Part shown: positions 22,524 to 42,889 of the stretch, piece after piece
How positions within the stretch are numbered: position 1 is the first letter of the stretch
How the letters are laid out: every line of letters starts with the position of its first letter
NCBI RefSeq assembly: GCF_026968045.1
Contig: NZ_JAPVBQ010000002.1
Location: forward strand, 980,933 to 1,044,932
Reading direction: 5' to 3'
Length of the DNA: 64,000 bases
From: Modestobacter sp. VKM Ac-2977
Lineage (GTDB): Bacteria; Actinomycetota; Actinomycetes; Mycobacteriales; Geodermatophilaceae
The notes under the pieces: model-generated
The model's database searches: none
Told to the model about the DNA's origin: nothing
What the model saw: the letters and a program-made list of their open reading frames with translations, nothing else
Translations under genes and position numbers: made by a program

Positions 22524-22543
22524 CTTCGTCGCCTCGTACGAAG
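22524..22543. promoter_or_regulatory. Shared palindrome upstream of the S9-S12 operon
   Basis: CTTCGTCGCCTCGTACGAAG, 33 bases before the ATG at 22576. It shares the TTCGT-N8-ACGA core with sites at 29234, 38389 and 39901, each in the intergenic region before an operon of the same locus. Candidate operator for the PucR-type regulator. Confidence 0.6.
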
Positions 22544-22575
22544 AGCATCCAGAACTCGGGCAGCAGGCTCGCCCC

Positions 22576-25500
22576 ATGGGTCGACCACTCGCTCTCGAGG
22601 ACGTGCACGCCCTGCAGCTGCCGGGCGAGCCCACCGTCTCCCCCGACGGGCGCGCCGTCGTCTACGTGCTGCGCACCACCGACACCGCGGCCGACGCCGA
22701 CCGGTACGCGCTCTGGCGGGTCCGCGCCGCGGCCGACGGCTGGGGCGCGCCGGCGCCGCTGACCCGGGGCACCGCCGACACCAGCCCGGCCTTCTCCCCC
22801 GCCGGCGACCGGGTCGCCTTCCTCCGCCGCGGCGACGGACCAGCGCAGCTGCACCTGCTGGCGGTCGACGGTGGCGAGGCCGAGCAGGTGACCGACCTGC
22901 CCGCCGGCGCCGGCGCCCCGGTCTGGAGCCCGGACGGGGACCGCATCGCCTTCACCGCGCCGGTCCCCCCGGCCGACCCGGACGAGCACGCGCCGCTCAG
23001 CACCACCCGGATCGGCTACAAGGCCGACGGCGCCGGGCTGCTACGCGGGGTACGCCAGCACCTGCACGTGCTGGACCTGGCGAACGGCGAGGTGCGGCAG
23101 CTGACCTCCGGCGACTGGCACGCCGGCCGGCCGGCCTGGTCCCCCGACGGCACCCGGCTGGCGTTCGCCGCCGCGACCGACCCCGACGCCGACCTCACCC
23201 ACCGCACCCCGGCGCACGTGGTCGACGTCGCCGGTGGCCCACCCCGCCGGGTCGGTGACGGCCTGGGCCTGACCGGCCCGATGGTGTGGACCGCCGACGG
23301 CGAGGCGCTGCTCGTCACCGGCCAGCCCACGGTCGCCGTCGACCACACCGGCCTGCTCCTCCAGCCGCTGGACGCCGTCCCCGCCGAGCGCGACCTGGCC
23401 GCGCCGCTGGACCGCAACGTCATGCCGGGCGGCCCCGGCTACCCGGGCGGGCTGCCGCAGCTGACCCGGGACGGCGCCGAGGTCGTCTTCTGCGTCCGCG
23501 ACCGGGGCTGCTCACACGTCTACGCGACCTCCGTCGACGGATCGGGCACGCCCCGTCCGGTGCTGACCGGCGCGGACGTCGTCGTCTCCGGGCTGTCGGT
23601 GGCCGGCGAGGCCGATGTCGCCGCCGTCGTCCTGGCCGACCCGGCCAGCTACGGCGAGGTCGGCGTGGTCGACCTGCGCTCGGGCACCGTCACCCGGCTC
23701 ACCACGTACACGGCGGCCTCGCTCCCCGAGGTGGCGCTGGTGCAGCCGCAGCCCCGGACGTTCACCGTGCATGACGGCACGCCGGTGCACGGCTGGCTGC
23801 TGGTCGACCCGGCGACCCCGCAGCCGGCGCCGCTGCTGGTCGACGTGCACGGCGGCCCGCACAACGCCTGGTCCCCGGTGGCCGATGCCGCGCACCCGTA
23901 CCACCAGGCGCTGGTCGCGGCAGGCTGGGCGGTGCTGCTGGTCAACCCGCGCGGCAGCGACGGGTACGGGCGGGCGTTCCTCACCGGCGCCGTCGGCGGC
24001 TGGGGCACCGCCGACGAACGCGACTTCCTGGACCCGGTCGACCAGCTGGTCGCCGAGGGCGTGGCCGACCCGGCGCGGCTGGTGCTCACCGGCTACAGCT
24101 ACGGCGGCTTCATGACCTGCTGGCTGACCGGCCGCACCGACCGGTTCGCGGCTGCGATCGCCGGCGGCGTGGTCGCCGACCTGACCAGCATGACCGGCAC
24201 CAGCGACGCCGGGGAGGTGCTCGCGCTGGAGTACGGCGACCCAGTGACCGACCCCGCCGCCGTCCGGGCGCTCTCGCCGATCACGAACGTGCACCGGGTC
24301 CGCACGCCGACGCTGGTGCTGCACGGCGGTGCGGACGAGCGCTGCCCGGTCGGCCAGGCCGAGCAGTGGTTCACCGCGCTGCGCACCCAGCGCGTGCCCA
24401 CCGAGCTGGTCCTCTTCCCGGGCGGCTCACACCTGTTCATCCTGGACGGCCGCCCCTCGCACCGGGTCGGCTACAGCCGGCGGCTGATCGCCTGGGCGCA
24501 GCAGCACGGGAACAGCCGCCCCGTCCTGGACGCCGCGCACTGGCAGCGGCGGCTGGACGAGCTCGCCACGGCGCACCGCATCCCAGGAGCGGTGCTGGCG
24601 ATCCGGCGGGTGACCCCGGGTGCCGACGACGAACTGGTGGAGGCCGCCACCGGCGTGCTCAACAAGGCCACCGGCGTCGAGGTGACCACCGACTCGGTGT
24701 TCCAGATCGGCTCCATCACCAAGGTCTGGACGACGACGCTGGTGATGCAGCTGGTCGACGAGGGCAAGCTGGACCTCGACGCCCCGCTGGTCGAGGTGCT
24801 CCCGGAGCTCCAGCTGGGCGACCCCGACGTCGCCAAGCAGGTCACCATGCGCCACCTGCTCACCCACACCAGCGGCATCGACGGCGACGTCTTCACCGAC
24901 ACCGGCCGCGGCGACGACTGCATCGAGCGGTACGTGGCCGCGCTGGGCGACGTGGCGCAGAGCCACCCGCTGGGCGCCACCTTCTCCTACTGCAACTCCG
25001 GCTTCACGCTGGTCGGCCGGGTGGTCGAGGTGCTCACCGGCACCACCTGGGACGCCGCCCTGCGGGAGCGGGTCATCGAGCCGCTCGGGCTGACGCACAC
25101 CTCCACGCTGCCGGAGGAGGCGATCCTGCACCGCGCCGCGGTCGGGCACATCGCCACCGAGCCCGGTACCGAGCCGCAGCCGTCGCCGACCTGGCTGCTG
25201 CCCCGCTCGCTCGGCCCGGCCGGCCTGGTCAACGCCACCGCCCGGGACGTCACCGCCTTCGCCGCCGCACACCTGCGCGGAGGCGTGGCCGCCGACGGCA
25301 GCCGGCTGCTGTCCGCGGAGTCGGCGGCGGCGATGACCACCGCGCAGACCGCCCTCCCGGACACCTGGTCGCTCGGCGACTCCTGGGGGCTGGGCTGGAT
25401 CCGGTTCGACTGGCACGGGGCACGGCTGCACGGCCACGACGGCGGCACCCTGGGCCAGGGGGCGTTCCTGCGCGTGCTGCCCGGCGAGCGCCCGGGCGAG

Positions 25501-25917
25501 GGCCTGGTGGTGTCACTGCTGACCAACGGCGGGGACATGCTGGACGTCTACGCCGACCTCTACCGCGAGGTGTTCGCCGAGCTGGCCGGGGTGACCATGG
25601 CCGACCGCCTGCAGCCGCCCGCCGAACCGCCGGCCGTGGACCTCGCCCGCCACGTGGGCTGCTACGAGCGGAGCTCGGTGCAGACGGAGGTGTTCGAGCG
25701 TGACGGCGGGCTGGTGCTGCGCCAGACCGCGGTCGGCGCCGTGGCCGAGGCGACCGGGCAGCCGGTGCAGGAGCACGAGCTCGTGCCGGTGTCCGACGGA
25801 CTGTTCGCGATGCGCGCCCCGGGTACCCAGGGCTGGACGGCGGTCACGTTCTACCAACTGGCCGACGGCAGCGCGTACGTGCACTCCGGCGGCCGCGCCA
25901 ACCCGAGGAAGGGCTGA
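22576..25917 (+). CDS. S9 prolyl-oligopeptidase fused to S12 beta-lactamase-fold domain
   Basis: 1113-residue two-enzyme fusion. Residues 1-390 are a TolB/WD40-like propeller with SPDG repeats; residues 400-650 are an S9 alpha/beta hydrolase with Ser508 (GYSYGGF), Asp587 (HGGADERCP) and His619 (GGSHLF). From residue 655 a complete S12 serine hydrolase follows: Ser713-x-x-Lys716 (SITK), Tyr805-Cys-Asn807 and an HDG motif at 954-956. S9 enzymes remove short peptides or acyl-amino acids; S12 relatives include D-aminopeptidases and D-stereospecific peptide hydrolases. No signal peptide is present, so it should act in the cytoplasm on imported peptides. A 204-base stretch is identical to the stand-alone S12 gene at 39996. 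First gene of an operon with the M20, GNAT and racemase genes (6-base gap to the next). Confidence 0.9.
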   Translation: MGRPLALEDVHALQLPGEPTVSPDGRAVVYVLRTTDTAADADRYALWRVRAAADGWGAPAPLTRGTADTSPAFSPAGDRVAFLRRGDGPAQLHLLAVDGGEAEQVTDLPAGAGAPVWSPDGDRIAFTAPVPPADPDEHAPLSTTRIGYKADGAGLLRGVRQHLHVLDLANGEVRQLTSGDWHAGRPAWSPDGTRLAFAAATDPDADLTHRTPAHVVDVAGGPPRRVGDGLGLTGPMVWTADGEALLVTGQPTVAVDHTGLLLQPLDAVPAERDLAAPLDRNVMPGGPGYPGGLPQLTRDGAEVVFCVRDRGCSHVYATSVDGSGTPRPVLTGADVVVSGLSVAGEADVAAVVLADPASYGEVGVVDLRSGTVTRLTTYTAASLPEVALVQPQPRTFTVHDGTPVHGWLLVDPATPQPAPLLVDVHGGPHNAWSPVADAAHPYHQALVAAGWAVLLVNPRGSDGYGRAFLTGAVGGWGTADERDFLDPVDQLVAEGVADPARLVLTGYSYGGFMTCWLTGRTDRFAAAIAGGVVADLTSMTGTSDAGEVLALEYGDPVTDPAAVRALSPITNVHRVRTPTLVLHGGADERCPVGQAEQWFTALRTQRVPTELVLFPGGSHLFILDGRPSHRVGYSRRLIAWAQQHGNSRPVLDAAHWQRRLDELATAHRIPGAVLAIRRVTPGADDELVEAATGVLNKATGVEVTTDSVFQIGSITKVWTTTLVMQLVDEGKLDLDAPLVEVLPELQLGDPDVAKQVTMRHLLTHTSGIDGDVFTDTGRGDDCIERYVAALGDVAQSHPLGATFSYCNSGFTLVGRVVEVLTGTTWDAALRERVIEPLGLTHTSTLPEEAILHRAAVGHIATEPGTEPQPSPTWLLPRSLGPAGLVNATARDVTAFAAAHLRGGVAADGSRLLSAESAAAMTTAQTALPDTWSLGDSWGLGWIRFDWHGARLHGHDGGTLGQGAFLRVLPGERPGEGLVVSLLTNGGDMLDVYADLYREVFAELAGVTMADRLQPPAEPPAVDLARHVGCYERSSVQTEVFERDGGLVLRQTAVGAVAEATGQPVQEHELVPVSDGLFAMRAPGTQGWTAVTFYQLADGSAYVHSGGRANPRKG

Positions 25918-25923
25918 ACACCG

Positions 25924-27114
25924 GTGACCCACCTGCTCCCGCACGACGTCCGACCCACCGAGTTCGACGCGCTGCTGCCGGCGATGCTGGCCGACCTCGA
26001 GGAGCTGGTGACCGTCGAGTCGCCCTCGGCCGACCCGGCCGCGGTGGCCGCCGGTGCGGCCCGGGTGGCCCGGCTGGGCGCGCAGGCGCTGGGGGCGGAG
26101 CCGGAGGTGCTCCTGCACGAGGGCTGCACGCACCTGCGCTGGCGGCTCGGTGCGGGCCCCCGCCGGGTGCTGCTGCTCTGTCACCAGGACACGGTCTGGC
26201 CACTGGGCACCCTGGCGGAGATCCCGTGGTCGGTGACCGACGGGGTGGTGCGCGGCCCGGGCTGCTTCGACATGAAGGCCGGCATCGTGCTGGCCTTCAC
26301 CGCGCTGGCCGGCCTGCAGGCCGCGGGCGAGGACCTGGACGGGGTGACCGTGCTGGTCACCGGGGACGAGGAGATCGGCTCCCCGACGTCGGCCGACCTG
26401 ATCCGGGCCGAGGCCGCCGGCTGCGCCGCGGTGCTGGTACTGGAGGCCAGCGCCGACGGCGGTGCGCTCAAGACCGGCCGGAAGGGCGCCTCGATGTACG
26501 ACCTGCAGGTGACCGGTCGGGCCGCCCACGCCGGGCTGGAACCGGAGAAGGGCATCAGCAGCACCGTCGAGCTCGCCCACCAGGTGCTGGCGATCGCCGA
26601 CCTGGCCGACCCGGCGCTGGGCACCACGGTCACCCCGACGGTGCTCACCTCGGGCACCACCACGAACACCGTCCCGGCCACCGGCCGGCTCAGCGTCGAC
26701 GTCCGGGCACTCACCGCCGCCGAGCAGGAACGGGTCGACGCCGGGATGCGCGCGCTGACACCGCAGCTGCCCGGTGCGGTCCTCGAGCTGCGCGGCGGGA
26801 TCAACCGGCCGCCGCTGGAGGAGACCGCCTCGGCCGGGCTGTTCGCGCTGGCCACGGCGGTGTCGGCCCGGCTGGGCCTGCCGGCGCCGGCCGGGGTCAC
26901 CGTCGGGGGCGCCTCCGACGGGAACTTCACCGCCGGCATCGGGGTGCCCACGCTGGACGGGCTCGGTGCGGTCGGCGGCGGGGCGCACGCCGTCGACGAG
27001 CACGTGCTGGCCGACCAGCTCCCCGGCCGGGCCGCGCTCCTCGCCGGCCTGGTGCGGGCGGTGCTGGACGGCGGGGGCCTTGGCGTCCCGGACGAAGAGC
27101 GCCCCGGTGAATGA
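25924..27114 (+). CDS. M20 family metallohydrolase (CPG2-like)
   Basis: 396-residue M20 zinc hydrolase. The binuclear site is complete: His87 with Asp89 (CHQDTVW), Asp116 (CFDMKAG), Glu149-Glu150 (GDEEIGS; the first is the catalytic base), Glu174 (LEASADG) and His355 (GGGAHAVDEH). The dimerisation lid domain lies at about residues 185-295. M20 enzymes of this type remove acyl groups or C-terminal residues; in the Geobacillus D- to L-amino-acid pathway an M20 enzyme hydrolyses N-succinyl-L-amino acids. The position next to a GNAT and a racemase supports that role here. GTG at 25924 follows the upstream stop by six bases. Confidence 0.88.
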   Translation: MTHLLPHDVRPTEFDALLPAMLADLEELVTVESPSADPAAVAAGAARVARLGAQALGAEPEVLLHEGCTHLRWRLGAGPRRVLLLCHQDTVWPLGTLAEIPWSVTDGVVRGPGCFDMKAGIVLAFTALAGLQAAGEDLDGVTVLVTGDEEIGSPTSADLIRAEAAGCAAVLVLEASADGGALKTGRKGASMYDLQVTGRAAHAGLEPEKGISSTVELAHQVLAIADLADPALGTTVTPTVLTSGTTTNTVPATGRLSVDVRALTAAEQERVDAGMRALTPQLPGAVLELRGGINRPPLEETASAGLFALATAVSARLGLPAPAGVTVGGASDGNFTAGIGVPTLDGLGAVGGGAHAVDEHVLADQLPGRAALLAGLVRAVLDGGGLGVPDEERPGE

Positions 27115-27154
27115 GCACCCCGCACCAAGCCCGGCCGGGTCCACCGCACCGACC

Positions 27155-28123
27155 ATGGGCGGTGTGACCGACCTGATCGCCGGGACCCCGCTGCCCCTGC
27201 CCGCCGCCGGGCCGGGTGGTCAGGGTGCGGCCCGCGCCGGCGCCGACGCCGCCTCGGTCGTCGCCGCGGAGGCCGCCGCCGCCTCGGGGGTGCGGGTCGC
27301 CGCGCTCACCGACCTGGCCGACCTGCGGGCCGTCCAGGCGCTCTTCGACTCCATCTGGCACCCGGCCCCGGACAACCCGCCGGTGACCGTCGAGCTGATG
27401 CGGGCGCTGACCAAGGCCGGCAACCCGCTGTTCGGTGCGTACGCCGACGGCCAGCTGGTCGGGGCCTGCGTGGCCTTCTTCGCCGCCCCGTCGGGCAGCG
27501 CCCTGCACAGTCACGTCACCGGGGTCGCGCCATCGGCGCAGCGACGCAGCGTCGGCCGGGCGCTGAAGCTGCACCAGCGGGCGTGGGCACTGCAGCACGG
27601 CCTCGACCGGATCAGCTGGACCTTCGACCCGCTCGTCCGGCGCAACGCCTGGTTCAACCTGGGCCGGCTGGCCGCCACCCCCGTGGAGTACCTGCCGGAC
27701 TTCTACGGCCCGATGGCCGACACGATCAACGCCTCCGACCAGTCCGACCGGCTGCTCACCTGTTGGTCGTTGGAGGCCCCCGCGGTGGTGCGGGCGGTCG
27801 CCGGCCAGCCGGTGGACGTCGACCTGCCCGCCCTGCTGGCCGCCGGCGCGGCCGCCGTCCTGACCGTGGGCCCCGGCGGGCGCCCGGAGGCCCGGCCCGG
27901 GACGCCGGGGGTGCCCGCGCTGATCGCCGTCCCGGCCGACGTCGAGACACTGCGTGCCCGCGATGCCGCGCTGGCCGCGGAGTGGCGCGTGGCCGTGCGC
28001 GCCGCCCTCGGCGGTGCGCTGACCGCAGGAGCCCGCGTGCGGGGGTTCGCCCGCGAGGGCTGGTACGTCGTCGACGGCCCGGGTCTGCCCGGCGCCCCTG
28101 AGGCCGGGAGGGCCACACCGTGA
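27155..28123 (+). CDS. COG3375-type GNAT, candidate D-amino-acid N-succinyltransferase
   Basis: 322-residue GNAT protein of the larger COG3375 type. The core runs from VRVAALTDLADLRAVQALFDSIW (near residue 47) through GAYADGQLVGACVAFF to HSHVTGVAPSAQRRSVGRALKLHQ, the acyl-CoA loop. ISWTFDPLVRRNAWFNLGRL is a strong signature of the COG3375 group. Genes of this group sit beside N-succinylamino-acid racemases in several bacteria and can succinylate D-amino acids from succinyl-CoA. Here it overlaps the racemase gene by four bases (GTGA), so the two are translationally coupled. ATG at 27155 is used; a GTG nine bases later is possible. Acyl donor and acceptor are inferred from context. Confidence 0.8.
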   Translation: MGGVTDLIAGTPLPLPAAGPGGQGAARAGADAASVVAAEAAAASGVRVAALTDLADLRAVQALFDSIWHPAPDNPPVTVELMRALTKAGNPLFGAYADGQLVGACVAFFAAPSGSALHSHVTGVAPSAQRRSVGRALKLHQRAWALQHGLDRISWTFDPLVRRNAWFNLGRLAATPVEYLPDFYGPMADTINASDQSDRLLTCWSLEAPAVVRAVAGQPVDVDLPALLAAGAAAVLTVGPGGRPEARPGTPGVPALIAVPADVETLRARDAALAAEWRVAVRAALGGALTAGARVRGFAREGWYVVDGPGLPGAPEAGRATP

Positions 28124-29226
28124 AGCTCGAGGCCGTGGAACTGCGCCGGATCCGGATGCCGTTGGTCGCACCGTTCCGCACGTCGTTCGGCAGTCAGACC
28201 GCCCGCGACATCCTGCTGGTGCGGGCGCGGACCGACGTGGCGGAGGGCTGGGGCGAGTGCGCCGCGCTGCCGGACCCGCGTTACTCCGCCGAGTACGTCG
28301 ACGGCGTCGCCGACGTGCTGCGCCGGTTCTTCCTGCCGGCCGTCGCCGCGGCGACGGACCTCGACGCCAACGCCGTCGGCCGGGTGCTGTCGCCGTTCCT
28401 GGGTCACTTCATGGCCAAGGCTGCGTTGGAGACCGCCGTCCTGGACGCCGAGCTGCGTGCGGACGGGCGCTCCTTCGGCTCGTTCCTGGGCGCAGCGGTC
28501 GACCGGGTGCCCTGTGGGGTCTCGGTCGGGATCATGGACTCGATCCCGGAGCTGCTCGACGCGGTCGGTGGCTACCTGGACCAGGGCTACCTGCGGATCA
28601 AGCTCAAGATCGAGCCGGGCTGGGACGTCGAGCCGGTCCGCGCGGTCCGGGAGCGCTTCGGCGACGTGGCGCTGCAGGTCGACGCCAACACCGCCTACGC
28701 CGTCTCCGATGCCCGACACCTGGCCCGACTGGACCCCTTCGAGCTGCTGCTGATCGAGCAGCCGCTGGACGAGGACGACGTGCTCGGCCACGCCGAGCTG
28801 GCCCGCACGGTGCGCACGCCGATCTGCCTGGACGAGTCGATCACCTCGGCCCGCTCGGCCGCGGCGGCGATCCGGCTGGGCGCCTGCTCGATCGTGAACG
28901 TGAAGCCCGCCCGGGTCGGCGGGTACCTGGAGGCCCGGCGGGTCCACGACGTGTGCGCCGCGCACGGCGTGCCGGTGTGGTGCGGCGGGATGCTGGAGAC
29001 CGGGCTGGGCCGGGCCGCCAACGTGGCACTGGCCGCGCTGCCGAACTTCACGCTGCCCGGGGACACCTCGGCCTCCGACCGGTACTACGCCACCGACATC
29101 ACCCCGCCGTTCCGGCTCGACGACGGGCACCTGCGGGTGCCCACCGGCCCCGGCCTCGGGGTGGAACCCGACGCCGCGCTGCTGGAGGAGGTCACCACCT
29201 CGGTGGAGGAGATCGACCTGCGCTGA
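28120..29226 (+). CDS. Enolase-superfamily N-acylamino-acid racemase / OSBS-like
   Basis: 368-residue enolase-superfamily enzyme of the MenC/N-succinylamino-acid racemase group. The full catalytic set is present: the Lys161-x-Lys163 pair (RIKLKI), metal ligands Asp188 (QVDAN), Glu213 (LIEQP) and Asp238 (CLDES), and Lys262 (VNVKPARVGG). Numbering and spacing match the Amycolatopsis racemase almost exactly. The family can act as o-succinylbenzoate synthase or as racemase; no other menaquinone gene is nearby, while a GNAT and an M20 hydrolase are, so racemisation of N-acyl amino acids is the better call. GTG at 28120 overlaps the GNAT stop. A perfect palindrome begins eight bases after its stop. 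Confidence 0.88.
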   Translation: MKLEAVELRRIRMPLVAPFRTSFGSQTARDILLVRARTDVAEGWGECAALPDPRYSAEYVDGVADVLRRFFLPAVAAATDLDANAVGRVLSPFLGHFMAKAALETAVLDAELRADGRSFGSFLGAAVDRVPCGVSVGIMDSIPELLDAVGGYLDQGYLRIKLKIEPGWDVEPVRAVRERFGDVALQVDANTAYAVSDARHLARLDPFELLLIEQPLDEDDVLGHAELARTVRTPICLDESITSARSAAAAIRLGACSIVNVKPARVGGYLEARRVHDVCAAHGVPVWCGGMLETGLGRAANVALAALPNFTLPGDTSASDRYYATDITPPFRLDDGHLRVPTGPGLGVEPDAALLEEVTTSVEEIDLR

Positions 29227-29233: not shown

Positions 29234-29253
29234 GTTCGTCCGGCCGGACGAAC
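29234..29253. promoter_or_regulatory. Shared palindrome upstream of the pucR-type gene
   Basis: GTTCGTCCGGCCGGACGAAC is a perfect 20-bp palindrome with no loop, between the racemase stop and the regulator's promoter (-10 at 29306). The absence of a loop favours an operator over a terminator. It shares its core with sites at 22524, 38389 and 39901. Confidence 0.65.
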
Positions 29254-29318: not shown

Positions 29319-31013
29319 GTGAGCCTGCCTGCGAGCTCGGTCCCGGGTCTGTCCACGCTCGCCGCTGCCCCGGCGGCGGCGCACCGGGCCAGCCTCGGTC
29401 ACGTCCTGGACCACCTGGGCACCACCCTGCTCGAGGTGGCGGCCGGCGACCCGACGGCCGATCTGGCCGAGCAGGGCGTCGGCGGGCTGGTCATCCACGA
29501 CCCGGTCGACCCCCCGGCGCTGCCCTCCCGGGCGCTGGTGCTGGGCGTCGGCGTGCACGAGCCGGACGCCGTCCTGGACCTGCTGGAGCAGACCGCCGCC
29601 GCCGGCGGGGCCGGGCTGGTCGTGCGGGCGCCGGCGCCGGCCGACCCACGGATCTCCGCGGTCGCCGAGCGCACCGGCACCGTGCTGCTCGCACTGACCC
29701 GCGGCGCCAGCTGGAACCAGCTGGCCACCCTGGTCCGCTCGCTGCTCGGCGAGGGCGGGGTGGGGACCGCGGGGTCGGAGTCGCTGGGCGGGGTGCCGGG
29801 CGGGGACCTGTTCGCCCTCGCCAACGCGATCGCCTCGCTGCTGGACGCGCCGGTGACCATCGAGGACCGCAGCTCGCACATCCTCGCCTTCTCCGGCCGC
29901 CAGGACGAGGCCGACGAGTCGCGCATCCAGACCATCCTCGGCCGCCAGGTGCCCGACCGGTTCACCCGCCGGCTCGAGGCTCACGGGGTGTTCCGGCAGC
30001 TGTACGCCACCGACCGCCCGGTGTGGATGGCGCCGGAGGTGCTCGGGATGCCGGAGGTGACCATCGCCCGGGTGGCGGTCGCGGTGCGGGCCGGCGACGA
30101 GATCCTCGGCACCATCTGGGCCGCCGTCGACGAGCCGCTGGACCCCTCGCGCGAGCGCAGCCTGGTCGACGCGGCGAAGCTGGTCGCCCTGCACCTGTTG
30201 CGGATGCGGGCCGGTGCCGACGTGGAGCGGCGGCTGGCCAGCGAGCTGGTCGCCACGGCGCTGGAGGGCGGGCCGGGCACGGTGGACGCGCTGAGCCGGC
30301 TGGGGCTGGCCGACCGGCCGCTGATCGTGCTGGCGATGGGGCTGACCGAGAACACCGACGAGCACGGCACCCTGACCCTGGCCCGGCGCGAGGCCGAGCG
30401 GCAGCGCTCTGCGGACGCGCTGGCCGTGCACCTGACCGCGCTGCACCCCGGCTCCGTCGTCGCCCTGGTCGGCGGGGTCTGCTACGGCGTCCTGCCGGTC
30501 GGGGCGGACGCACCGACGGCGGACGTGCGGGCCGCCGCGGTGGCCACCGAGTTCCTGCAGCGCACCGGTGGCCGGGTGCCCGGGATGATCGGCGTGGGCA
30601 CCGTCGCCCTCGACGTCTCGGCGCTGACCCGCTCCCGGGACGCCGCCGACCGGGCTCTGCGGGTGCTGCGCAACGGCACCACCTCGCGCCGGGTGGCCCG
30701 CGCCAGCGACGTGCACATCGAGTCGCTGATGCTGCAGCTGGCCGACCTGGCCGCCGCTGAGGGGCACCAGGCCTCGGGGCCGGTCGCCCGGCTCGCCGAG
30801 TACGACGCCGCGCACCGCGCCCAGCTGGTGGAGACGCTGCGCGCCTGGCTGGACGCCTTCGGGGACGCGATCGCCGCCTCCGCGAAGGTGCACGTGCACC
30901 CCAACACCTTCCGCTACCGACTGCGCCGGATCGCCGAGGTCGGCGGGATCGACCTGGGCGACGCCGACTCCCGGTTCGCCGCGATGCTGGAGCTGCGGCT
31001 GCTGCGCTGGTGA
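29319..31013 (+). CDS. PucR/CdaR-type transcriptional regulator
   Basis: 564-residue regulator of the PucR family. Residues 1-150 form the N-terminal PucR ligand domain (LGHVLDHLGTTLLEVAAGD, VGGLVIHDP). A GAF-like middle part (LFALANAIASLLDAPVTIEDRSS) and a long linker follow. The C-terminal HTH_30 domain is clear (LVETLRAWLDAFGDAIAASA; HVHPNTFRYRLRRIAEVGGI; ending ELRLLRW). Such proteins respond to nitrogen compounds or catabolic substrates and often activate neighbouring operons. The start is GTG at 29319, fixed by a leaderless -10. A palindrome 66 bases upstream recurs before the other operons of this locus, so this protein is the natural candidate for its regulator. Confidence 0.88.
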   Translation: MSLPASSVPGLSTLAAAPAAAHRASLGHVLDHLGTTLLEVAAGDPTADLAEQGVGGLVIHDPVDPPALPSRALVLGVGVHEPDAVLDLLEQTAAAGGAGLVVRAPAPADPRISAVAERTGTVLLALTRGASWNQLATLVRSLLGEGGVGTAGSESLGGVPGGDLFALANAIASLLDAPVTIEDRSSHILAFSGRQDEADESRIQTILGRQVPDRFTRRLEAHGVFRQLYATDRPVWMAPEVLGMPEVTIARVAVAVRAGDEILGTIWAAVDEPLDPSRERSLVDAAKLVALHLLRMRAGADVERRLASELVATALEGGPGTVDALSRLGLADRPLIVLAMGLTENTDEHGTLTLARREAERQRSADALAVHLTALHPGSVVALVGGVCYGVLPVGADAPTADVRAAAVATEFLQRTGGRVPGMIGVGTVALDVSALTRSRDAADRALRVLRNGTTSRRVARASDVHIESLMLQLADLAAAEGHQASGPVARLAEYDAAHRAQLVETLRAWLDAFGDAIAASAKVHVHPNTFRYRLRRIAEVGGIDLGDADSRFAAMLELRLLRW

Positions 31014-31997: not shown

Positions 31998-32090
31998 GCG
32001 CTGAGACTGCCATCCATCGCGGACAGGATCTGGCACCGATGCCCGGCAGCCTCGTCGGTACGAGATCCCATCGACGAGAGGGCACACCCG

Positions 32091-35647: not shown

Positions 35648-36658
35648 TCAGCTCTCCCGGATCGCCGAGCGTGGGTCCAGCAGGGCGAGCACCACGTCCA
35701 CGGTCAGGTTCACCAGCAGCACGCCCGCGCCGTAGACGAGCACGATCCCCTGCACCACCGGGTAGTCCTTGAGCAGGATCGAGGACGCGATGGTGCTGCC
35801 CAGTCCCGGCCAGGCGAAGACGTTCTCCACCAGCACGGTGCCGGCGACCAGGGCGGTGAGCAGCAGCCCGCCGAGGGTGATGGTGGCGGTCAGTGCGTTG
35901 GGCAGCGCGTCGCGCAGGTAGATCCGGCGCCGGGGCAGCCGCTTGGCCCGGGCGGTGCGCAGGTAGTCGGCCTGCAGCACCGACACCATCTCCACCCGCA
36001 TGATCCGGGCCAGCGCCGCGCCCGGGCCGAGCGCCAGCGAGAGGACCGGGAGCACGTAGGACTCCGGGCCACCCCGCCCGGCCACCGGCAGCAGGCCCCA
36101 CTGCACGCCGAACAGGTAGACCAGGCCGACGCCGAGCAGGAACTCCGGGATCGCGCTCAGCGCCACGCTGGTCGAGGAGAACGCCAGCTCCCCGCCGCGG
36201 CGCCGGCCGCCGCGGGTGAGCACGCCCATCAGCACCCCGAGCGGGACGGCGATGGCCAGCGCCACCACGAAGGCCAGCAACGCCAGCTGGACCGTGGCCG
36301 GCAGCCGCTGGGAGATCACCTGCGAGACCGGCAGCCGCGAGGTGAGGGACGTGCCCAGGTCACCGCTGAACAGTCCGCCCAGGAAGTGCACGTACTGCAG
36401 CCAGAGCGGGTCGTCCAGGCCGAGGGACTCCCGCCGGGCGGCCACCAGCGCCGCCGGTGCGGTGGGGCCCAGGGCGCTGCGCACCGGGTCCCCGGGGATC
36501 AGGTGGATCATCAGGAACGAGGCGGTCACCAGCACCCACATGGAGACCAGCAGCTGGCCTCCGCGCCGCAGAGCGAAGCGGGCCCAGGGACCGTCCAGGA
36601 CGGCGGTGCCCCGTCGGTCCGTGGCGGTGGCGGGGTGCGCCCCCGTCGTGCTGGTCAC
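35648..36658 (-). CDS. Peptide ABC transporter permease (DppB type)
   Basis: 336-residue inner-membrane permease. It has an N-terminal helix (LLVSMWVLVTASFLMIHLIPGDP), the family's conserved LGLDDPLWLQYVHFLGGLFSGDLGTS pattern (residues 79-104), and further helices that include the EAA coupling loop (ADYLRTARAKRLPRRRIYLRDALPNAL pattern). GTG at 36658 has AGGAGGGG upstream. It forms the channel with the permease half of the fused protein encoded directly downstream. Confidence 0.93.
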   Translation of the reverse strand: MTSTTGAHPATATDRRGTAVLDGPWARFALRRGGQLLVSMWVLVTASFLMIHLIPGDPVRSALGPTAPAALVAARRESLGLDDPLWLQYVHFLGGLFSGDLGTSLTSRLPVSQVISQRLPATVQLALLAFVVALAIAVPLGVLMGVLTRGGRRRGGELAFSSTSVALSAIPEFLLGVGLVYLFGVQWGLLPVAGRGGPESYVLPVLSLALGPGAALARIMRVEMVSVLQADYLRTARAKRLPRRRIYLRDALPNALTATITLGGLLLTALVAGTVLVENVFAWPGLGSTIASSILLKDYPVVQGIVLVYGAGVLLVNLTVDVVLALLDPRSAIRES

Positions 36659-36724: not shown

Positions 36725-38314
36725 TCAGCCGGCCGTCATCCGGATGCTGGTCGGGACGACGGCGACCGCGCCGGACTCGAAGCGGGCTCCGCTGCCGAAG
36801 GTGTTGACGGTCTGGTTGGCGAAGGGGACCACGTCGGCGTCGCGCACCAGGGCCGACTCCGCGGCCAGCCAGGTGTCGCAGCCCTCGGTGCCGACCATCG
36901 TCATCGCCTCGGCCACGCCGGCCGCGTAGTCGGCGTTGTCGATGGAGGCGAAGTTGTTGCCCTCCGGGGCCGCCGGGCCCGACACGAACGGGACGAGCTG
37001 GTCGGGGCTGCTGACGTTGAGCGGCAGCCAGGTCACGTCCCAGTTGCCGCTGCCGAACACGGTCTCCAGCAGTGCGGTGTCGTCCTGGCCGCTCATGCTC
37101 ACCTCGGCGCCCAGCTCCTGCCAGGTGGACGAGGCGAGCTCGGCCGCGGCCGCGCCGCCGGTGCCCAGGCCGCTGTTGTAGATGAAGGTCAGCTCCAGCG
37201 GCGTCCCGTCCTTGGACCGGGTGCCGTCGGGGCCGGCCGTCCACCCGGCGGCGTCCAGGGTCTCCCGGGCTGCCTCCAGGCCGCCGGTGGGCAGCGCGCC
37301 GGAGACCGAGTCGCCGGGGCAGGCGACCGGCGCGGACGTCGCGAACGTGCTGCCGGGAGAGCCGGTGCCCCCGGTGAGCACCTCCCGCAGCTCGTCCAGG
37401 TCCAGGGCCTGGGTCAGCGCCGTCCGGACGGCGGGGTCGGCGCCGGGCCGACCGGCTGCGTGGTTGAACCACATCTCGCCCAGCACCGCGTCCAGGGTGC
37501 TGGCGAACAGGCCGGCGCCGGTCAGCCGCTGGGCGTCCGGGCCGAGCACCGTGGCCGCGTTCAGGCCACCGGAGAGCAGCAGGTTCGCCGAGGTCGTCTC
37601 GTTGGGCACGACCTGGACGACGACCTCGTCGGGCATGCCCTCCTCGTCGGTGCCCGCCCCGTCCGGCCCCCAGGTGTAGCCCTCGCGCAGGCTGTAGGTG
37701 ACGTGGTCGGTGGGCACGACCTCGGTCAGCTCGTAGGGCCCGGTGCCCCGGCTCTCGCTCGCCAGCAGCGACCGGTCGGCCAGCCCGCTCGCGCAGACCA
37801 TCGGGAGGCTGGTCAGGCCCTCGAGCACGAACGGCGCCGGGGTCTCCAGGGTGATGGTGAGCGTCGAGCCGTCGGCGGTGGCAGCGGCCCCGGGAGGCAG
37901 GAAGGTGCCCAGCAGCGGGCTCTCGTTGGCCGGGTCGGCCACGTAGTTGATGTTGTCGGCGGCGTCGGCCGCGGTGAACGGCTCACCGTCGGCGCAGGTG
38001 ATGTCGTCGGCGATGGTCAGGGTGACCTCCTGGCCGTCGACCTGCCAGTCGCTGGCCAGGCCGCTGATCAGCTGCCCGTCGCTGTCCAGGTGCAGCAGCG
38101 GGTCATAGGCGAACTGGCTCAGCTGCAGCACGTTGGAGGACACCGACTGCTGCGGGTCCAGGCTGCCGGGGTCGGCGTCCATCGCCATGGTGAACGTGCC
38201 GCCGTCGACGACCTCGCCGCCGCCGGCGTCCCCGCCGCCGTCGTCACCACCGCCGCACCCGGCGAGGACGGTCACGGCAACGCACGCACCGACGCCGGTC
38301 CGGATGAGCCTCAT
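36725..38314 (-). CDS. Peptide-binding lipoprotein (SBP family 5)
   Basis: 529-residue extracytoplasmic solute-binding protein of family 5 (DppA/OppA type). A lipoprotein signal (VAVTVLAGC, lipid-anchored Cys near residue 20) is followed by a Gly/Asp-rich linker. The family motif MDADPGSLDPQQSVSSNVL and the YDPLLHLDSDGQLISGLASDW segment identify it. It captures peptides at the cell surface for the permeases encoded downstream. ATG at 38314 has GGGAGAGG upstream. A shared regulatory palindrome lies at 38389-38408, 75 bases upstream, so this is the first gene of the importer operon. Confidence 0.92.
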   Translation of the reverse strand: MRLIRTGVGACVAVTVLAGCGGGDDGGGDAGGGEVVDGGTFTMAMDADPGSLDPQQSVSSNVLQLSQFAYDPLLHLDSDGQLISGLASDWQVDGQEVTLTIADDITCADGEPFTAADAADNINYVADPANESPLLGTFLPPGAAATADGSTLTITLETPAPFVLEGLTSLPMVCASGLADRSLLASESRGTGPYELTEVVPTDHVTYSLREGYTWGPDGAGTDEEGMPDEVVVQVVPNETTSANLLLSGGLNAATVLGPDAQRLTGAGLFASTLDAVLGEMWFNHAAGRPGADPAVRTALTQALDLDELREVLTGGTGSPGSTFATSAPVACPGDSVSGALPTGGLEAARETLDAAGWTAGPDGTRSKDGTPLELTFIYNSGLGTGGAAAAELASSTWQELGAEVSMSGQDDTALLETVFGSGNWDVTWLPLNVSSPDQLVPFVSGPAAPEGNNFASIDNADYAAGVAEAMTMVGTEGCDTWLAAESALVRDADVVPFANQTVNTFGSGARFESGAVAVVPTSIRMTAG

Positions 38315-38388: not shown

Positions 38389-38408
38389 CTTCGTGCGACC
38401 GGACGAGG
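38389..38408. promoter_or_regulatory. Shared palindrome upstream of the peptide importer operon
   Basis: CTTCGTGCGACCGGACGAGG, an imperfect copy of the 20-bp motif. Ten of the last eleven core bases equal the pucR site (CG[A/G]CCGGACGA). It lies 75 bases before the binding-protein start. Confidence 0.55.
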
Positions 38409-38447
38409 TGGCCTGCCCCCGCTCGTCGCACGTGACCAGGCGGAGGG

Positions 38448-39836
38448 TCATGCACCGGCCCGGGGCACGGCACGGCCGATGTGCATGAACCGCGCACGAC
38501 CGGCGCCGTCGTCGCCGAGGAAGGCGAAGGGCACGTGCAGGCCGGACTGGGCCTGCACCGGGATCAGCGTGTCCGGGGCGAAGGAGACCAGCTCGCTGCG
38601 CTCGGGCTGCTCGCCCATCTCCAGGGCGATGTCCTTGGGGCGCATCTCCAGCCAGATCCGGCCGTCGTCGTCCTGGCTGACGACCAGGTCGGCCACCCGG
38701 CTGCTGTACGTGCCGGCGTACCGCGTCGCGTCGACCCGGGGCGGGTCGACCGGCGGCACCGGCAGCGCCCGCAGCTGCACGTCGGCCAGCTCCCGCAGCA
38801 CGTGGCCCACGACGTCCCGGTACAGCCCGTAGGGGTCCCCGCCGTTGGTGAGCAGCACGACGGCGATGCCTCGCTCGGGCAGGACCCGCAGGAACGAGGC
38901 CTGGCCGATGGTGTTGCCGTCGTGCCCGATGACCGGGGTGCCCTGGCCGTCGAACACCTCCCAGCCCAGTCCCCAGGCGTCGCCCATCACCCGGATGTCG
39001 GGGAGGTCCACCTGGCGTTCCTGCATCGCCGCGACCGTGCCGGCGTCCAGGACGCTCGACCCGTCGGCCGCCTTGCCCGCCTCCAGGTGCATCCGGGCGA
39101 AAGCGAGCAGGTCCCGCGCCCGCATCGACAGCATCGAGCCGGCCGGGGCGTTGGACCGGGCCATGGCCCACATCGGTGCCGGCACCTCCGCGGCGTCCGG
39201 CTCGGGGCGCACGTGGCCGACCGCGACCCGGTGGACGATCGCCTCGTACGGGCTGGCCGCGGCGTGGGTGAGGCCGAGGGGTGCGAACAGGCGCTCCGCC
39301 AGGCACTCGTCGAACGGCTTGCCGCGCAGCACCTCCACCAGCCGGCCGAGGACGCAGTAGCCGGCGTTGTTGTAGGAGAACTGCTCGCCGGGTGGGAAGA
39401 GCTGTGCCACGTCGCCGAGCCCGGCGACGTAACGCTCCAGGGCGTCGTCGCCGCGGCCGGTGTCGGTGAACACGTCGCCCTCGAAGCCGGCGGTGTGGCT
39501 CAGCAACTGGCGCACGGTGAGGGTGCGTGCCGCCGACTCGTCGGCCAGCGTCAGGCCGGGCAGGTGCCGGCTGACCGGGTCCTCCAGGGCGACCAGGCCC
39601 TCGTCGACCAGCTGCATCACCAGGGTCGCCGTCCAGACCTTGGTGATCGAGCCGATCTGGAACAGCGAGTCCGGTGTTGCGGCCACCTCGGTCGCGGTGC
39701 TGAGCACCCCGGCAGCGGCGTCGACCACCTCACCCTCGGCGAGCACCGCCACCCCGGCGGCCGGCACCCCGTGCTCGGCCAGCAGCGTCGGCAGTCGGTC
39801 GCGGATCCAGGCTCCGACCTCGTCCAGCTTCGTCAT
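38448..39836 (-). CDS. S12 beta-lactamase-fold serine hydrolase, stand-alone
   Basis: 462-residue serine hydrolase of the S12 (class C beta-lactamase/D-aminopeptidase) fold. Ser63-x-x-Lys66 (SITK), Tyr155-Asn-Asn157 (FSYNNAGY) and a C-terminal HDGNTIGQ motif form the active site. A C-terminal lipocalin-like part (residues 370-462) is typical of D-aminopeptidase-type enzymes. It is a diverged paralogue of the gene at 39996 and of the second half of the fusion at 22576. There is no signal peptide, so it is probably cytoplasmic. It diverges from the 39996 gene across a 159-base region with a perfect palindrome. True beta-lactamase activity is unlikely without export. Confidence 0.88.
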   Translation of the reverse strand: MTKLDEVGAWIRDRLPTLLAEHGVPAAGVAVLAEGEVVDAAAGVLSTATEVAATPDSLFQIGSITKVWTATLVMQLVDEGLVALEDPVSRHLPGLTLADESAARTLTVRQLLSHTAGFEGDVFTDTGRGDDALERYVAGLGDVAQLFPPGEQFSYNNAGYCVLGRLVEVLRGKPFDECLAERLFAPLGLTHAAASPYEAIVHRVAVGHVRPEPDAAEVPAPMWAMARSNAPAGSMLSMRARDLLAFARMHLEAGKAADGSSVLDAGTVAAMQERQVDLPDIRVMGDAWGLGWEVFDGQGTPVIGHDGNTIGQASFLRVLPERGIAVVLLTNGGDPYGLYRDVVGHVLRELADVQLRALPVPPVDPPRVDATRYAGTYSSRVADLVVSQDDDGRIWLEMRPKDIALEMGEQPERSELVSFAPDTLIPVQAQSGLHVPFAFLGDDGAGRARFMHIGRAVPRAGA

Positions 39837-39850
39837 GCGGGAACCGTAGG

Positions 39851-39890: not shown

Positions 39891-39900
39891 GCGGGGGCGC

Positions 39901-39920
39901 CTTCGTCGGCGCCGACGAAG
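39901..39920. promoter_or_regulatory. Shared palindrome between divergent S12 genes
   Basis: CTTCGTCGGCGCCGACGAAG is a perfect 20-bp palindrome, 64 and 75 bases from the two divergent starts. It shares the TTCGT-N8-ACGA core with the other three sites of the locus. Confidence 0.65.
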
Positions 39921-39995
39921 ATCCGTGGCGGCCGGCGCGGCAGGCTGCGCCCGTGGGTCGGACCGGCCCCGGACGACGACCGGACGGAGCAGCAG

Positions 39996-41402
39996 ATGAC
40001 CACGGCCACACGCCCTGCGATCGACCAGCAGCACTGGCAGCAGCGACTGGACGAGCTGGCCCGGCGACACGGGGTGCCCGGCGCGACCCTCGCCGTCCTG
40101 CGGCTGGGCGCGGACGGCGGCGCGGACGAACTGGTGGAGGCCGCCACCGGTGTGCTGAACCTGAGCACCGGCGTGGAGGTGACCACCGACTCGGTGTTCC
40201 AGATCGGCTCGATCACCAAGGTCTGGACGACGACGCTGGTGATGCAGCTGGTCGACGAGGGCAAGCTGGACCTCGACGCCCCGCTGGTCGAGGTGCTCCC
40301 GGAGCTCCAGCTGGGCGACCCCGACGTCGCCAAGCAGGTCACCATGCGCCACCTGCTCACCCACACCAGCGGCATCGACGGCGACGTCTTCACCGACACC
40401 GGCCGCGGCGACGACGTGCTGGAGAAGTACGTCGCCGCTCTCGCCGACGTCGCGCAGAACCACCCGCTGGGCGCCACCTTCTCCTACTGCAACTCCGGGT
40501 TCAACCTCGCCGGGCGGGTGGTCGAGGTGCTCACCGGCAAGACCTGGGACGCCGCCCTGCGCGAGCGGGTCATCGAGCCGCTCGGGCTCACCCACACCTC
40601 CACGCTCCCGGAAGAGGCGATCTTGCACCGCGCCGCCGTCGGGCACATCGAGCCGGGCGAGGACGCCGACCTGCAGCCGACGACCACCTGGCTGCTGCCC
40701 CGCTCGCTGGGCCCGGCCGGCCTGGTCAACGCCACCGCCCGGGACGTCACTGCCTTCGCCCGGCTGCACCTGCGCGACGGCCGCGGCCCGGACGGCGACG
40801 TGCTGCTGTCCGCGGCCGCCACGGCCCGGATGCAGGAGCTGCAGACCGACCTGCCGGACAAGTACTCCCTCGGTGACTCGTGGGGGCTGGGCTGGATCCG
40901 GTTCGACTGGGACGGCGAACGGCTCTACGGCCACGACGGGACGACGATCGGGCAGAACGCCTTCCTGCGGGTGCTGCCGTCCCAGGGCTTCGCGGTGGCG
41001 CTGCTGACCAACGGCGGCCACCCCCGCGACCTGTACAGCGACCTGTACCGCGAGCTGTTCGCCGAGCTCGCCGGGGTGCAGATGGCCGCGCAGCTGGAGC
41101 CGCCGGCCACGGCGCCCGACGTGGACCACTCCGGCTACGTGGGCACCTACGAGCGCAGCTCGATCACCACCGAGGTGTTCGAGCGCGAGGGCGGGCTGGT
41201 GCTGCGGATCATCCCGACCGGGGAGGTCGCCCTGTCCACCGGCGCGACCGTGGAGGAGCTGGAGCTGCACCCGGTCGAGCAGGGCCTGTACGCCACCCGG
41301 GCGCCGGGCGAGGAGACCTGGATGGCGGCGGTCTTCTACTCGCTGCCCGACGGCAGCGAGTACCTGCACTACGGCGCCCGCGCGCAACCGCGGAAGGCCT
41401 GA
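39996..41402 (+). CDS. S12 beta-lactamase-fold serine hydrolase (paralogue of the fused domain)
   Basis: 468-residue S12 serine hydrolase with Ser72-x-x-Lys75, Tyr164-Cys-Asn166 and HDG at 313-315. It aligns along its whole length with residues 650-1113 of the S9-S12 fusion, and 204 bases (40212-40415) are identical to 24715-24918. The C-terminal lipocalin-like part (YVGTYERSSITTEVFEREGG) matches as well. A D-aminopeptidase or D-peptidase function is inferred from the family and from the neighbouring deacylase. ATG at 39996 has GGAG upstream. Its stop overlaps the next start by one base (TGATG). Confidence 0.9.
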   Translation: MTTATRPAIDQQHWQQRLDELARRHGVPGATLAVLRLGADGGADELVEAATGVLNLSTGVEVTTDSVFQIGSITKVWTTTLVMQLVDEGKLDLDAPLVEVLPELQLGDPDVAKQVTMRHLLTHTSGIDGDVFTDTGRGDDVLEKYVAALADVAQNHPLGATFSYCNSGFNLAGRVVEVLTGKTWDAALRERVIEPLGLTHTSTLPEEAILHRAAVGHIEPGEDADLQPTTTWLLPRSLGPAGLVNATARDVTAFARLHLRDGRGPDGDVLLSAAATARMQELQTDLPDKYSLGDSWGLGWIRFDWDGERLYGHDGTTIGQNAFLRVLPSQGFAVALLTNGGHPRDLYSDLYRELFAELAGVQMAAQLEPPATAPDVDHSGYVGTYERSSITTEVFEREGGLVLRIIPTGEVALSTGATVEELELHPVEQGLYATRAPGEETWMAAVFYSLPDGSEYLHYGARAQPRKA

Positions 41403-42889
41403 TGCCCGCACCGGTGGCCGACCTCGTCCTGACCGGCGCCCGGGTCATCGACCCGGAGACCGGCCTGGACGGGGTGCGGGCGGTGGGGATCACCGGCGGC
41501 GCGATCACCTCGGTCGGCGAGGCGGCGCCGCCGGCCCGGGAGGTGTGGGACGTCGCCGGGCAGGTGCTGGCGCCCGGCTTCATCGACCTGCACAGCCACG
41601 CGCAGAGCACCACCGGCCTGCGGCTGCAGGCCCTCGACGGCGTGACCACCGCGCTGGAGCTGGAGGCCGGGGTGCTGCCGGTCGCCGGCGCCTACGCCCG
41701 GGCCGAGGCAGAGGGCCGGCCGGTGAACTTCGGGTTCTCCGCGTCCTGGACCGACGCCCGGATGCACGTGCTCGACGGGGTGCCGTTGGTGGCCGACGCC
41801 TCGCTGGACCTGTTCGCCACCCACCAGTCGCTGCCGAACTGGCGCGGTCCGGCGAGCGACCGGGACGTCGGCCGCATCCTGGACCTGCTGGCCGACGCCG
41901 TCGGCGAGGGCGCGCTGGGCATCGGGGTGCTGGTCGGCTACGCCCCGGACAGCGGTCGGGCCGAGTACTTCCGGCTGGCCGGTCTCGCCGCCCGGCTGGG
42001 CGTACCGACCTTCACCCACACGCGCTTCATCTCCACCGCCGAGCCCGGCACCTCACTGGAAGGTGCCCTGGAGGTGATCGCCGCCGCGGCCGGCACCGGG
42101 GCCCACATGCACATGTGCCACGTCAACAGCACCTCCACCCGGATGATCGACGAGGTCGCCGGCGCGATCGACGCCGCCCGCGGCCGCGGCGTCCGGGTGA
42201 GCACGGAGGCCTATCCCTACGGCGCCGGGTCCACGGTCATCGGCGCGGCGTTCCTCTCCCCCGAGCAGCTGCCCCGGCTGGGGATCGGCCCGCAGCAGCT
42301 GACCTACCTGCCCACCGGGGAGCGGATCGCCGACGGCCGCCGGCTGGCCGAGCTGCGCGCGACCGACCCGGGCGGCGGCGTGGTGGTGCACTTCCTGGAC
42401 GAGGACGACCCGGCCGACCTCGCCGTCCTGGAGCGGTCGTTCACGCTGGCCGACACCGCGATCGCCACCGACGCGATGCCTCTGGTCGCCCCGGGCGGAG
42501 GCCCCGCACCGGATTCCTGGCCACCCCGACCGGACATGGTCACCCACCCCCGCTCGGCCGGGTCCTACGGACGCACGCTGCGCTGGCTGGTGCGGGAACG
42601 GGACCTGCTCACCCTCACCGAGGCGCTGCGCCGCTCGTCGCTGCTGCCGGCACAGCTCCTGGAGGGCGCCGTCCCGGCGATGGGCCGCAAGGGCCGGGTA
42701 CAGGTCGGCACGGACGCCGACCTCGTGGTCTTCGACCCGGACACGGTCACCGACCACGCGACGTACACCCGGGTCGCGCCGTCCAGCGGCTTCCGGCACG
42801 TGCTGGTCGCCGGGACGCCGGTGGTCCGCGACGGGGAGCTGCGCACCGACGTGCTGCCCGGCCGGGCGGTGCGCTCGGGCGCGGTCTGA
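41402..42889 (+). CDS. N-acyl-D-amino-acid deacylase-type amidohydrolase
   Basis: 495-residue amidohydrolase of the D-aminoacylase/dihydroorotase-like group. Metal-binding His64 and His66 (LHSHAQ), Glu in ALELEAG (residues 86-88), His206 (THTRF), His240 (MCHVNS) and Asp in ATDAMP near residue 358 make a complete site. The LQALDGVTTALELEAG segment is characteristic of N-acyl-D-amino-acid (D-glutamate type) deacylases. It should cleave N-acyl groups from D-amino acids. Its start overlaps the S12 gene's stop, so the two are co-translated, and it fits the D-amino-acid theme of the locus. The exact acyl substrate is not known. Confidence 0.85.
   Translation: MPAPVADLVLTGARVIDPETGLDGVRAVGITGGAITSVGEAAPPAREVWDVAGQVLAPGFIDLHSHAQSTTGLRLQALDGVTTALELEAGVLPVAGAYARAEAEGRPVNFGFSASWTDARMHVLDGVPLVADASLDLFATHQSLPNWRGPASDRDVGRILDLLADAVGEGALGIGVLVGYAPDSGRAEYFRLAGLAARLGVPTFTHTRFISTAEPGTSLEGALEVIAAAAGTGAHMHMCHVNSTSTRMIDEVAGAIDAARGRGVRVSTEAYPYGAGSTVIGAAFLSPEQLPRLGIGPQQLTYLPTGERIADGRRLAELRATDPGGGVVVHFLDEDDPADLAVLERSFTLADTAIATDAMPLVAPGGGPAPDSWPPRPDMVTHPRSAGSYGRTLRWLVRERDLLTLTEALRRSSLLPAQLLEGAVPAMGRKGRVQVGTDADLVVFDPDTVTDHATYTRVAPSSGFRHVLVAGTPVVRDGELRTDVLPGRAVRSGAV

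Follow-up and report, generated by a model that had tools for sequence, protein, structure and literature searches.

A candidate actinobacterial gene cluster for the use of peptides with D-residues joins an N-succinylamino-acid racemase core to a peptide importer and peptidases in Modestobacter sp. VKM Ac-2977

What is a racemase of the N-succinylamino-acid type doing next to a peptide importer and several serine peptidases? In this work we have put this question to a stretch of 64,000 nucleotides from Modestobacter sp. VKM Ac-2977 (contig NZ_JAPVBQ010000002.1, positions 980,933 to 1,044,932, forward strand), which we call the window and which is part of contig C9 of a 4.31-Mb genome (G+C about 75%). 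A preliminary description of this DNA had proposed that some 20 kb of it form a salvage locus for D-peptides and D-amino acids. We consider it likely that the cluster is a PucR-controlled regulon for utilising peptides with D-residues, which would take them up, cleave them and then convert D- to L-amino acids irreversibly. How likely this is rests on the enzymatic core, on its co-inheritance with the other parts and on a test of a menaquinone role; the substrates throughout, and PucR as the DNA-binding partner, we infer from protein families.

Gene calling together with Pfam and NCBIfam hidden Markov model (HMM) scans bore out the parts list of the preliminary description: between about 22,576 and 42,889 lie an S9-S12 fusion, an M20 hydrolase, a GNAT, an enolase resembling N-succinylamino-acid racemase (NSAR), a PucR regulator, a complete importer, two further S12 hydrolases and an amidohydrolase. 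The first operon, on the plus strand, runs from the S9-S12 fusion through M20, GNAT and NSAR to PucR, with spacings of 6 bp, 40 bp (M20 to GNAT), a 4-bp overlap (GNAT with NSAR) and 92 bp. The second, on the minus strand, comprises S12b, a solute-binding protein (SBP), permease B, a fusion of permease C with ATPase D, and ATPase F; divergent from it, the third (plus strand) holds S12a and the amidohydrolase. The whole host genome of 4.31 Mb contains 9 S12 genes and 7 SBP_bac_5 genes, a density at which one would not expect three S12 and one SBP inside 20 kb, and since the set also recurs across many other actinobacteria, this gathering of genes is more than chance. The core is made up of three genes:

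25924..27114, plus strand: M20 hydrolase, carboxypeptidase G2-like (PF01546; carboxypeptidase G2, 1cg2, 5e-34)
27155..28123, plus strand: GNAT (PF00583, 29 bits, cut-off 20.7; PF13480)
28120..29226, plus strand: N-succinylamino-acid racemase of the NSAR/OSBS subfamily (TIGR01928, 298 bits, cut-off 201; 1sja, 8e-175)

Judged by family, GNAT is a putative succinyl-CoA:D-amino-acid N-succinyltransferase and M20 a putative N-succinyl-L-amino-acid desuccinylase. GNAT would N-succinylate a D-amino acid, NSAR would equilibrate the N-succinyl-D with the N-succinyl-L form, and M20 would strip succinate from the L-form, which would make the conversion irreversible. The enolase had been described as having a full active site, and this holds: K161, K163, D188, E213, D238 and K262, which we take to be the catalytic Lys pair with three metal ligands among them, are invariant in 10 orthologues. 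In M20, motif strings place His87, Asp116, Glu149/150, Glu174 and His355, presumably the metal ligands and the catalytic Glu. The NSAR pathway of Geobacillus kaustophilus reportedly consists of GNAT, NSAR and M20. The same three-enzyme core is found here in the order M20-GNAT-NSAR, but joined to an ABC peptide importer, the S9-S12 fusion, more S12 hydrolases, PucR and an operator-like repeat.

Is this union a peculiarity of one strain? A collection of 84,980 species was scanned for relatives of the racemase, with at least 594 pattern matches, at least 590 of them confirmed, and the locus counts given here refer to the best 80, of which 65 have complete 10-kb flanks and 15 short ones; from their genus names we take all of these to be actinobacteria. 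In 75 of the 80 loci the gene immediately 5' of NSAR, in the same orientation, is GNAT (median gap between the matches, 18 bp), and the order M20-GNAT-NSAR is kept in 62. M20 and GNAT are accompanied by S9 or S12 and by three or more importer genes in 37 of the 80 loci and in 33 of the 65 with complete flanks; at 40% identity, with M19 counted as a peptidase, the full set is found in 34 of the 80. One recurrent gene order, on one strand, is SBP-B-C-D-F-S9-S12-M20-GNAT-NSAR-PucR. As controls we used 20 of 29 canonical menC loci, four of them shorter than 18 kb, and these 20 neighbourhoods gave no match to GNAT, M20, S9, S12, SBP, PucR or the amidohydrolase. The other matches in them were to ATPase F in three, to ATPase D in two (30-35% identity) and to GGDEF in one, and menC itself was matched by NSAR in four. 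In Amycolatopsis, NSAR orthologues in 8 genomes are 72-75% identical to the window protein, and seven of the eight loci carry the core, the importer and S12, the eighth locus being incomplete. The same gene set is carried by a Streptomyces plasmid, where the position of the fusion is taken by a 1,127-aa protein annotated as serine hydrolase.

The inheritance of the parts was followed in 59 genomes, the host included. NSAR at 65% identity or more is present in 16, and GNAT (E up to 1e-10) accompanies it in 15 of these 16 as against none of the 43 others. S9 at 55% or more was found in 10 genomes, with an eleventh carrying a 42% match, and SBP at 55% or more likewise in 10, three more having matches of 38-40% only. 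The S9 and SBP sets are the identical ten genomes, all within the 16 with NSAR (raw counts, uncorrected for kinship). The families thus co-occur in related genomes, a check that the preliminary description had proposed, S9 and SBP appearing only alongside NSAR and GNAT in this sample and the loci recurring among the 80.

Could the enolase nevertheless be an o-succinylbenzoate synthase (OSBS, MenC), as public records name it, with neighbours that have nothing to do with it? The enzyme does exceed the curated cut-off of TIGR01928, which is a 'menC' model, and its relatives are annotated menC in public records. Its best PDB match is 1sja, which we take to be the Amycolatopsis N-acylamino-acid racemase/OSBS. 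According to PMC4215206, OSBS proved to be the biologically relevant function of the Amycolatopsis enzyme, and related enzymes catalyse both reactions. Genome content argues instead for a racemase engaged in the use of D-peptides. A canonical MenC match lies elsewhere in the host genome (430 bits, C10:764542-765468), and 24 bp behind it a MenD match begins in the same orientation; the cluster enolase is thus neither the sole OSBS candidate of its genome nor linked to men genes. For 38 of the 80 loci the racemase genome was tested for a separate canonical menC; 29 of these 38 genomes have one above the cut-off, all 8 Amycolatopsis included (three of the 29 matches have one internal stop codon). 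When 22 genomes were tested for MenD and MqnA/MqnD, all 13 with MenC had MenD over the cut-off, and in the nine without MenC, MenD likewise failed to reach the cut-off, and each has two PF02621 (MqnA/MqnD) genes. MqnA and MqnD belong to the futalosine route to menaquinone, by which these nine (five Streptomyces, and Streptacidiphilus, Jidongwangia, Virgisporangium and Dactylosporangium) appear to make it. With MenC and MenD missing over the cut-off and futalosine genes present, no OSBS substrate is expected in them, and the racemase is retained nonetheless. An OSBS or menaquinone role was therefore rejected on genome content and seems to us barely credible; the earlier supposition that the enolase is not merely an o-succinylbenzoate synthase withstood this test.

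If the core inverts D-amino acids, where would these come from? The reading as a regulon for D-residue peptides assigns their release to the following enzymes, with the amidohydrolase beside them:

22576..25917, plus strand: S9-S12 fusion, a beta-propeller and prolyl-oligopeptidase domain followed by an S12 domain (start at 22576 or 22603)
38448..39836, minus strand: S12 hydrolase b, S12b (PF00144, 232 bits; motifs SITK, YNN and HDG)
39996..41402, plus strand: S12 hydrolase a, S12a (PF00144, 225 bits)
41402..42889, plus strand: amidohydrolase related to N-acyl-D-amino-acid deacylases (NF006560, 624 bits, cut-off 340; 3gip, 5e-32)

The fusion is one open frame (PF00326, 145 bits; PF00144, 212 bits; also PF07676), and both of its active sites are invariant in 21 fused proteins (S508, D587, H619, S713, K716, Y805, N807, H954 and G956). 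Among 36 S9 matches at 45% identity or more, 22 are a single S9 and S12 frame, five are adjacent genes and nine are without an adjacent S12, one of these nine (L100) having an S9 frame of 1061 aa; genomes G009, G017, G018 and G033 have S9 without an adjacent S12 domain. A lasso-peptide isopeptidase was considered for the S9 part and dropped, NF033523 giving 134 bits, far under its cut-off of 400. The SxxK, YxN and HxG motifs of S12 peptidases are present in all three S12 domains. The nearest solved structures of S12a are IS11 (4e-60), 6ksu (4e-43), Ulm16 (9e-34) and alkaline D-peptidase (1.5e-24), and also the D-Ala-D-Ala carboxypeptidase 1cef; with IS11 presumably an esterase and 6ksu presumably SurE, a peptide cyclase, they are a mix of esterase and D-peptide enzymes. 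The S12 domain of the fusion (24523-25917) and S12a (39996-41402) are 74% identical overall, yet over some 80 consecutive residues they do not differ at all, a pattern suggestive of gene conversion.

Certain other lineages may use an M19 dipeptidase in addition to these peptidases or instead of them. M19 is present in 12 of the 80 loci, as against none of the 20 menC controls. Scans of unlabelled neighbour genes covered 20 of 135. In the 23 loci with neither S9/S12 nor importer (at 35%), seven same-strand genes directly 5' of M20 were scanned; six were M19 and the seventh (L104) was SBP_bac_5. One M19 protein finds its closest PDB match in 3id7 (dipeptidase/renal dipeptidase), which we take to be Sco3058, an M19 enzyme with L,D-dipeptidase activity. 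S12 and M19 are both peptidase families with known D-residue activity.

The amidohydrolase had been called a deacylase of the N-acyl-D-amino-acid type, and this stood in part. It is related to these enzymes (kin to N-acyl-D-glutamate deacylase) and falls in subfamily NF006560, but in the phmmer alignment an Ala stands at the position of the family's Cys metal ligand, presumably Cys96 of D-aminoacylase, and the nearby Glu88 is invariant in 13 orthologues.

Small peptides would be carried into the cell by the importer of the second operon:

32646..33623, minus strand: ABC importer ATPase F (PF00005, PF08352)
33620..35644, minus strand: permease C fused to ATPase D in one 674-aa protein (PF00528, PF00005, PF08352)
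35648..36658, minus strand: ABC importer permease B (PF00528, PF19300)
36725..38314, minus strand: peptide-type solute-binding lipoprotein, SBP_bac_5 (PF00496, 160 bits; hydrophobic N-terminus, LAGC lipobox)

As described earlier, this is a complete peptide-type ABC importer, with the SBP, two permeases and two ATPases with oligo_HPY. Nine proteins were inspected for an N-terminal signal-like segment, and within the system only the SBP has one, the other carrier being a neighbouring CAP protein. The enzymes, in which no signal-like N-terminus was seen, are thus apparently cytoplasmic, as had been proposed, and with a lipobox on the SBP the natural reading is that cleavage follows import: the S9-S12 fusion and the two S12 hydrolases would cut the imported peptides and free D- and L-amino acids.

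How might three operons be brought under one control? A PucR-type regulator closes the first of them, and operator-like repeats occupy four of the cluster's intergenic regions:

29319..31013, plus strand: PucR-type regulator (PF13556, the C-terminal PucR HTH, 69.5 bits; PF17853)
22525..22542, plus strand: operator-like inverted repeat TTCGTC-N6-TACGAA, 5' of the S9-S12 operon, one mismatch to TTCGTC-N6-GACGAA (position weight matrix (PWM) score 21.8, third)
29235..29252, plus strand: exact operator-like inverted repeat between NSAR and PucR (PWM 26.1)
38390..38407, minus strand: weaker operator-like repeat, a palindrome, 75 bp 5' of SBP, two mismatches (PWM 16.5, fourth)
39902..39919, plus strand: exact operator-like inverted repeat, a palindrome, in the divergent S12b/S12a promoter region (PWM 26.7, the best of the window)

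The fifth-best score in the window is 9.6; the matrix was built from 35 unique sites in 24 related loci plus three of the window and is thus partly circular, the fourth site lying outside the training set. If up to two mismatches are allowed, 6 matches are found in the window where 1.5 would be expected, and none of 100 shuffles reached 6. The 299 upstream regions (43 kb) of the 80 loci hold 37 matches with at most one mismatch, in 23 loci, as against at most one match for other half-site-permuted palindromes and 0-2 for spacers other than 6. The genes that these sites precede are S12b, the amidohydrolase, S9, GNAT, PucR and SBP, with a single case each for S12a, S12c and M20. When matches at any position are counted, those in coding sequence too, the racemase loci (1.91 Mb) have 70 and the menC loci (0.38 Mb) have 3. 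To judge from the DNA sequence itself, a common operator-like repeat ties the separate operons together, a point absent from the preliminary description. PucR-type regulators bind inverted repeats of 17-24 bp and control amino-acid catabolism (PMC7652997), and by analogy PucR is the likely binder of TTCGTC-N6-GACGAA ahead of the operons of the cluster. The amino-acid catabolism activators GabR, AdeR and PutR (PMC7652997) resemble it in type and in the length of their inverted-repeat sites; the site of the cluster differs in having been found in silico and in several intergenic regions of one cluster. The AdeR model itself gave 123 bits for the window PucR, under its cut-off of 700.

Ten plasmid loci were also read, two actinobacterial and eight labelled as other phyla. 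Lysinibacillus has an oligopeptide:H+ symporter (TIGR00924, 437 bits, cut-off 130) followed by M20-GNAT-NSAR. A plasmid labelled Stenotrophomonas rhizophila has nearly the same gene order as that of Lysinibacillus fusiformis, comX included (L163/L164), and this record is probably mislabelled or contaminated. Priestia has a gene annotated as amidohydrolase, a gap, GNAT and NSAR, and Cytobacillus M20-NSAR, GNAT being absent from the annotation. In Pseudosulfitobacter, NSAR-GNAT stand beside a divergent five-gene ABC importer. Near that importer and NSAR-GNAT on the roseobacter plasmid lies an M81 peptidase (L139, 4106-5611; MlrC (microcystinase) model, 220 bits, cut-off 999). Deinococcus radiodurans MP1 (L136, 11977-14815) has an NSAR homologue annotated menC, an amino-acid-type SBP that the annotation splits into two short pieces, and then GNAT; M20 and S12 are absent from its annotation. 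An importer beside the core thus recurs with unrelated transporters, though not everywhere, as loci of Limosilactobacillus and Nitratireductor illustrate.

Several observations weigh against a regulon for D-residue peptides. The complete set is wanting in 43 of the 80 loci (15 of the 80 have short flanks), within the available flanks 5 of the 80 are without GNAT and 18 without M20, and 11 of the 62 core loci lack S9, S12 or M19 at 40%. The Limosilactobacillus locus is without the core, and in Nitratireductor pOM-1 a 39% homologue annotated menC (L165, 9995-11110) has a sugar-acid neighbourhood in which neither GNAT nor M20 is annotated, being flanked by mannonate dehydratase and aldehyde dehydrogenase genes; it is probably a sugar-acid enzyme. 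The repeat, with at most one mismatch, precedes cluster genes in only 23 or 24 of the 80 loci; 7 of the 23 site-bearing loci have no PucR (at least 45%) in the available flanks, 38 PucR loci have no such site, and genomes G015 and G046 show no operator match although PucR is present. A site elsewhere in the host (L167, 3756), with two mismatches, scores 20.1, above the fourth site of the window; it is the best score in 236 kb of the remaining genome and lies about 3.4 kb from another S12 gene. As to the enzymes, S12a has IS11, presumably an esterase, as its nearest relative of known structure, the S12 family also includes esterases and beta-lactamases, the NCBIfam equivalog matches shown for the S12 proteins are far under cut-off, and S9 enzymes are usually L-specific.

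Would general oligopeptide scavenging then suffice, with L-peptides or N-acylated amino acids as the substrates, S12 and S9 enzymes that are not D-specific, and a core that merely recycles occasional D-amino acids? The closeness of S12a to IS11 speaks for it, and most members of the S9, M20 and SBP_bac_5 families act on L-peptides or carry them. It does not explain as well why the core is accompanied by S12 or M19, or why S9 and SBP at 55% or more were found only in core-bearing genomes, and we regard it as unlikely. Of the D-peptide salvage first proposed, then, the joining of GNAT, racemase and M20 to an importer and peptidases with which they co-occur stands, as does a racemase that is not merely OSBS; the deacylase is doubtful, an Ala being aligned to its Cys ligand.

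Alr and MurI normally deal with D-Ala and D-Glu, and other D-amino acids, such as those in nonribosomal peptides, may therefore be the likelier target. We suggest tentatively, and with more doubt than for the use of D-residue peptides as such, that the cluster is an unnamed actinobacterial regulon for chiefly nonribosomal peptides, in which PucR would sense a D-amino acid or its N-succinyl form, the repeat would coordinate import, the S9-S12 protein with its two active sites would open and trim possibly cyclic peptides, and the racemase route would recover L-amino acids. Or might such peptides be destroyed as antibiotics rather than eaten? S12a does resemble the nonribosomal-peptide cyclases 6ksu and Ulm16, and many hosts are soil actinobacteria that live amid such peptides. 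A defence or detoxification role of this kind is nevertheless very unlikely in our view: an importer that is complete and a D-to-L route that would be irreversible speak for nutrient use, no efflux transporter was seen among the genes covered by the HMM scans, in which a resistance library was not included, and matches to class C beta-lactamase models stayed far under the cut-offs.

Other genes of the window stand apart from the proposed D-peptide regulon. A WYL regulator and a mycothiol-transferase-like gene (31,035-32,624), lodged between the two arms of the cluster, are common to close relatives only and were dropped from its parts as lineage-specific. At 3037-3112 ARAGORN called a tRNA-like gene with undefined anticodon, which overlaps a called gene on the opposite strand and may be false.

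How does the regulon compare with what is known? The Bacillus dpp-ykf murein-peptide operon and the E. coli ddp (D-Ala-D-Ala) operon are peptide-use operons, and dpp-ykf likewise combines a peptide importer, peptidases and an enolase-family epimerase. The peptidases here are others, and free amino acids would be inverted via N-succinyl intermediates, unlike the epimerisation of dipeptides. A search of titles and the beginnings of abstracts, in which subscription literature is thinly covered, found no account of the whole assembly. The inversion route itself is known. That it should be stably joined to a peptide importer, to an S9-S12 protease or an M19 dipeptidase, and to a shared operator-like repeat is, as far as our searches go, apparently undescribed.

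If the D-peptide reading is true, it would give a physiological role to actinobacterial N-acylamino-acid racemases, a case of disputed function in which the enzymes are still publicly named menC, and it would reveal a way in which soil bacteria recover D-amino acids from peptides. The motif TTCGTC-N6-GACGAA could be used to find more members of the regulon. Should the cluster serve nonribosomal peptides in particular, this would be the true role of the archetypal Amycolatopsis 'N-acylamino acid racemase'.

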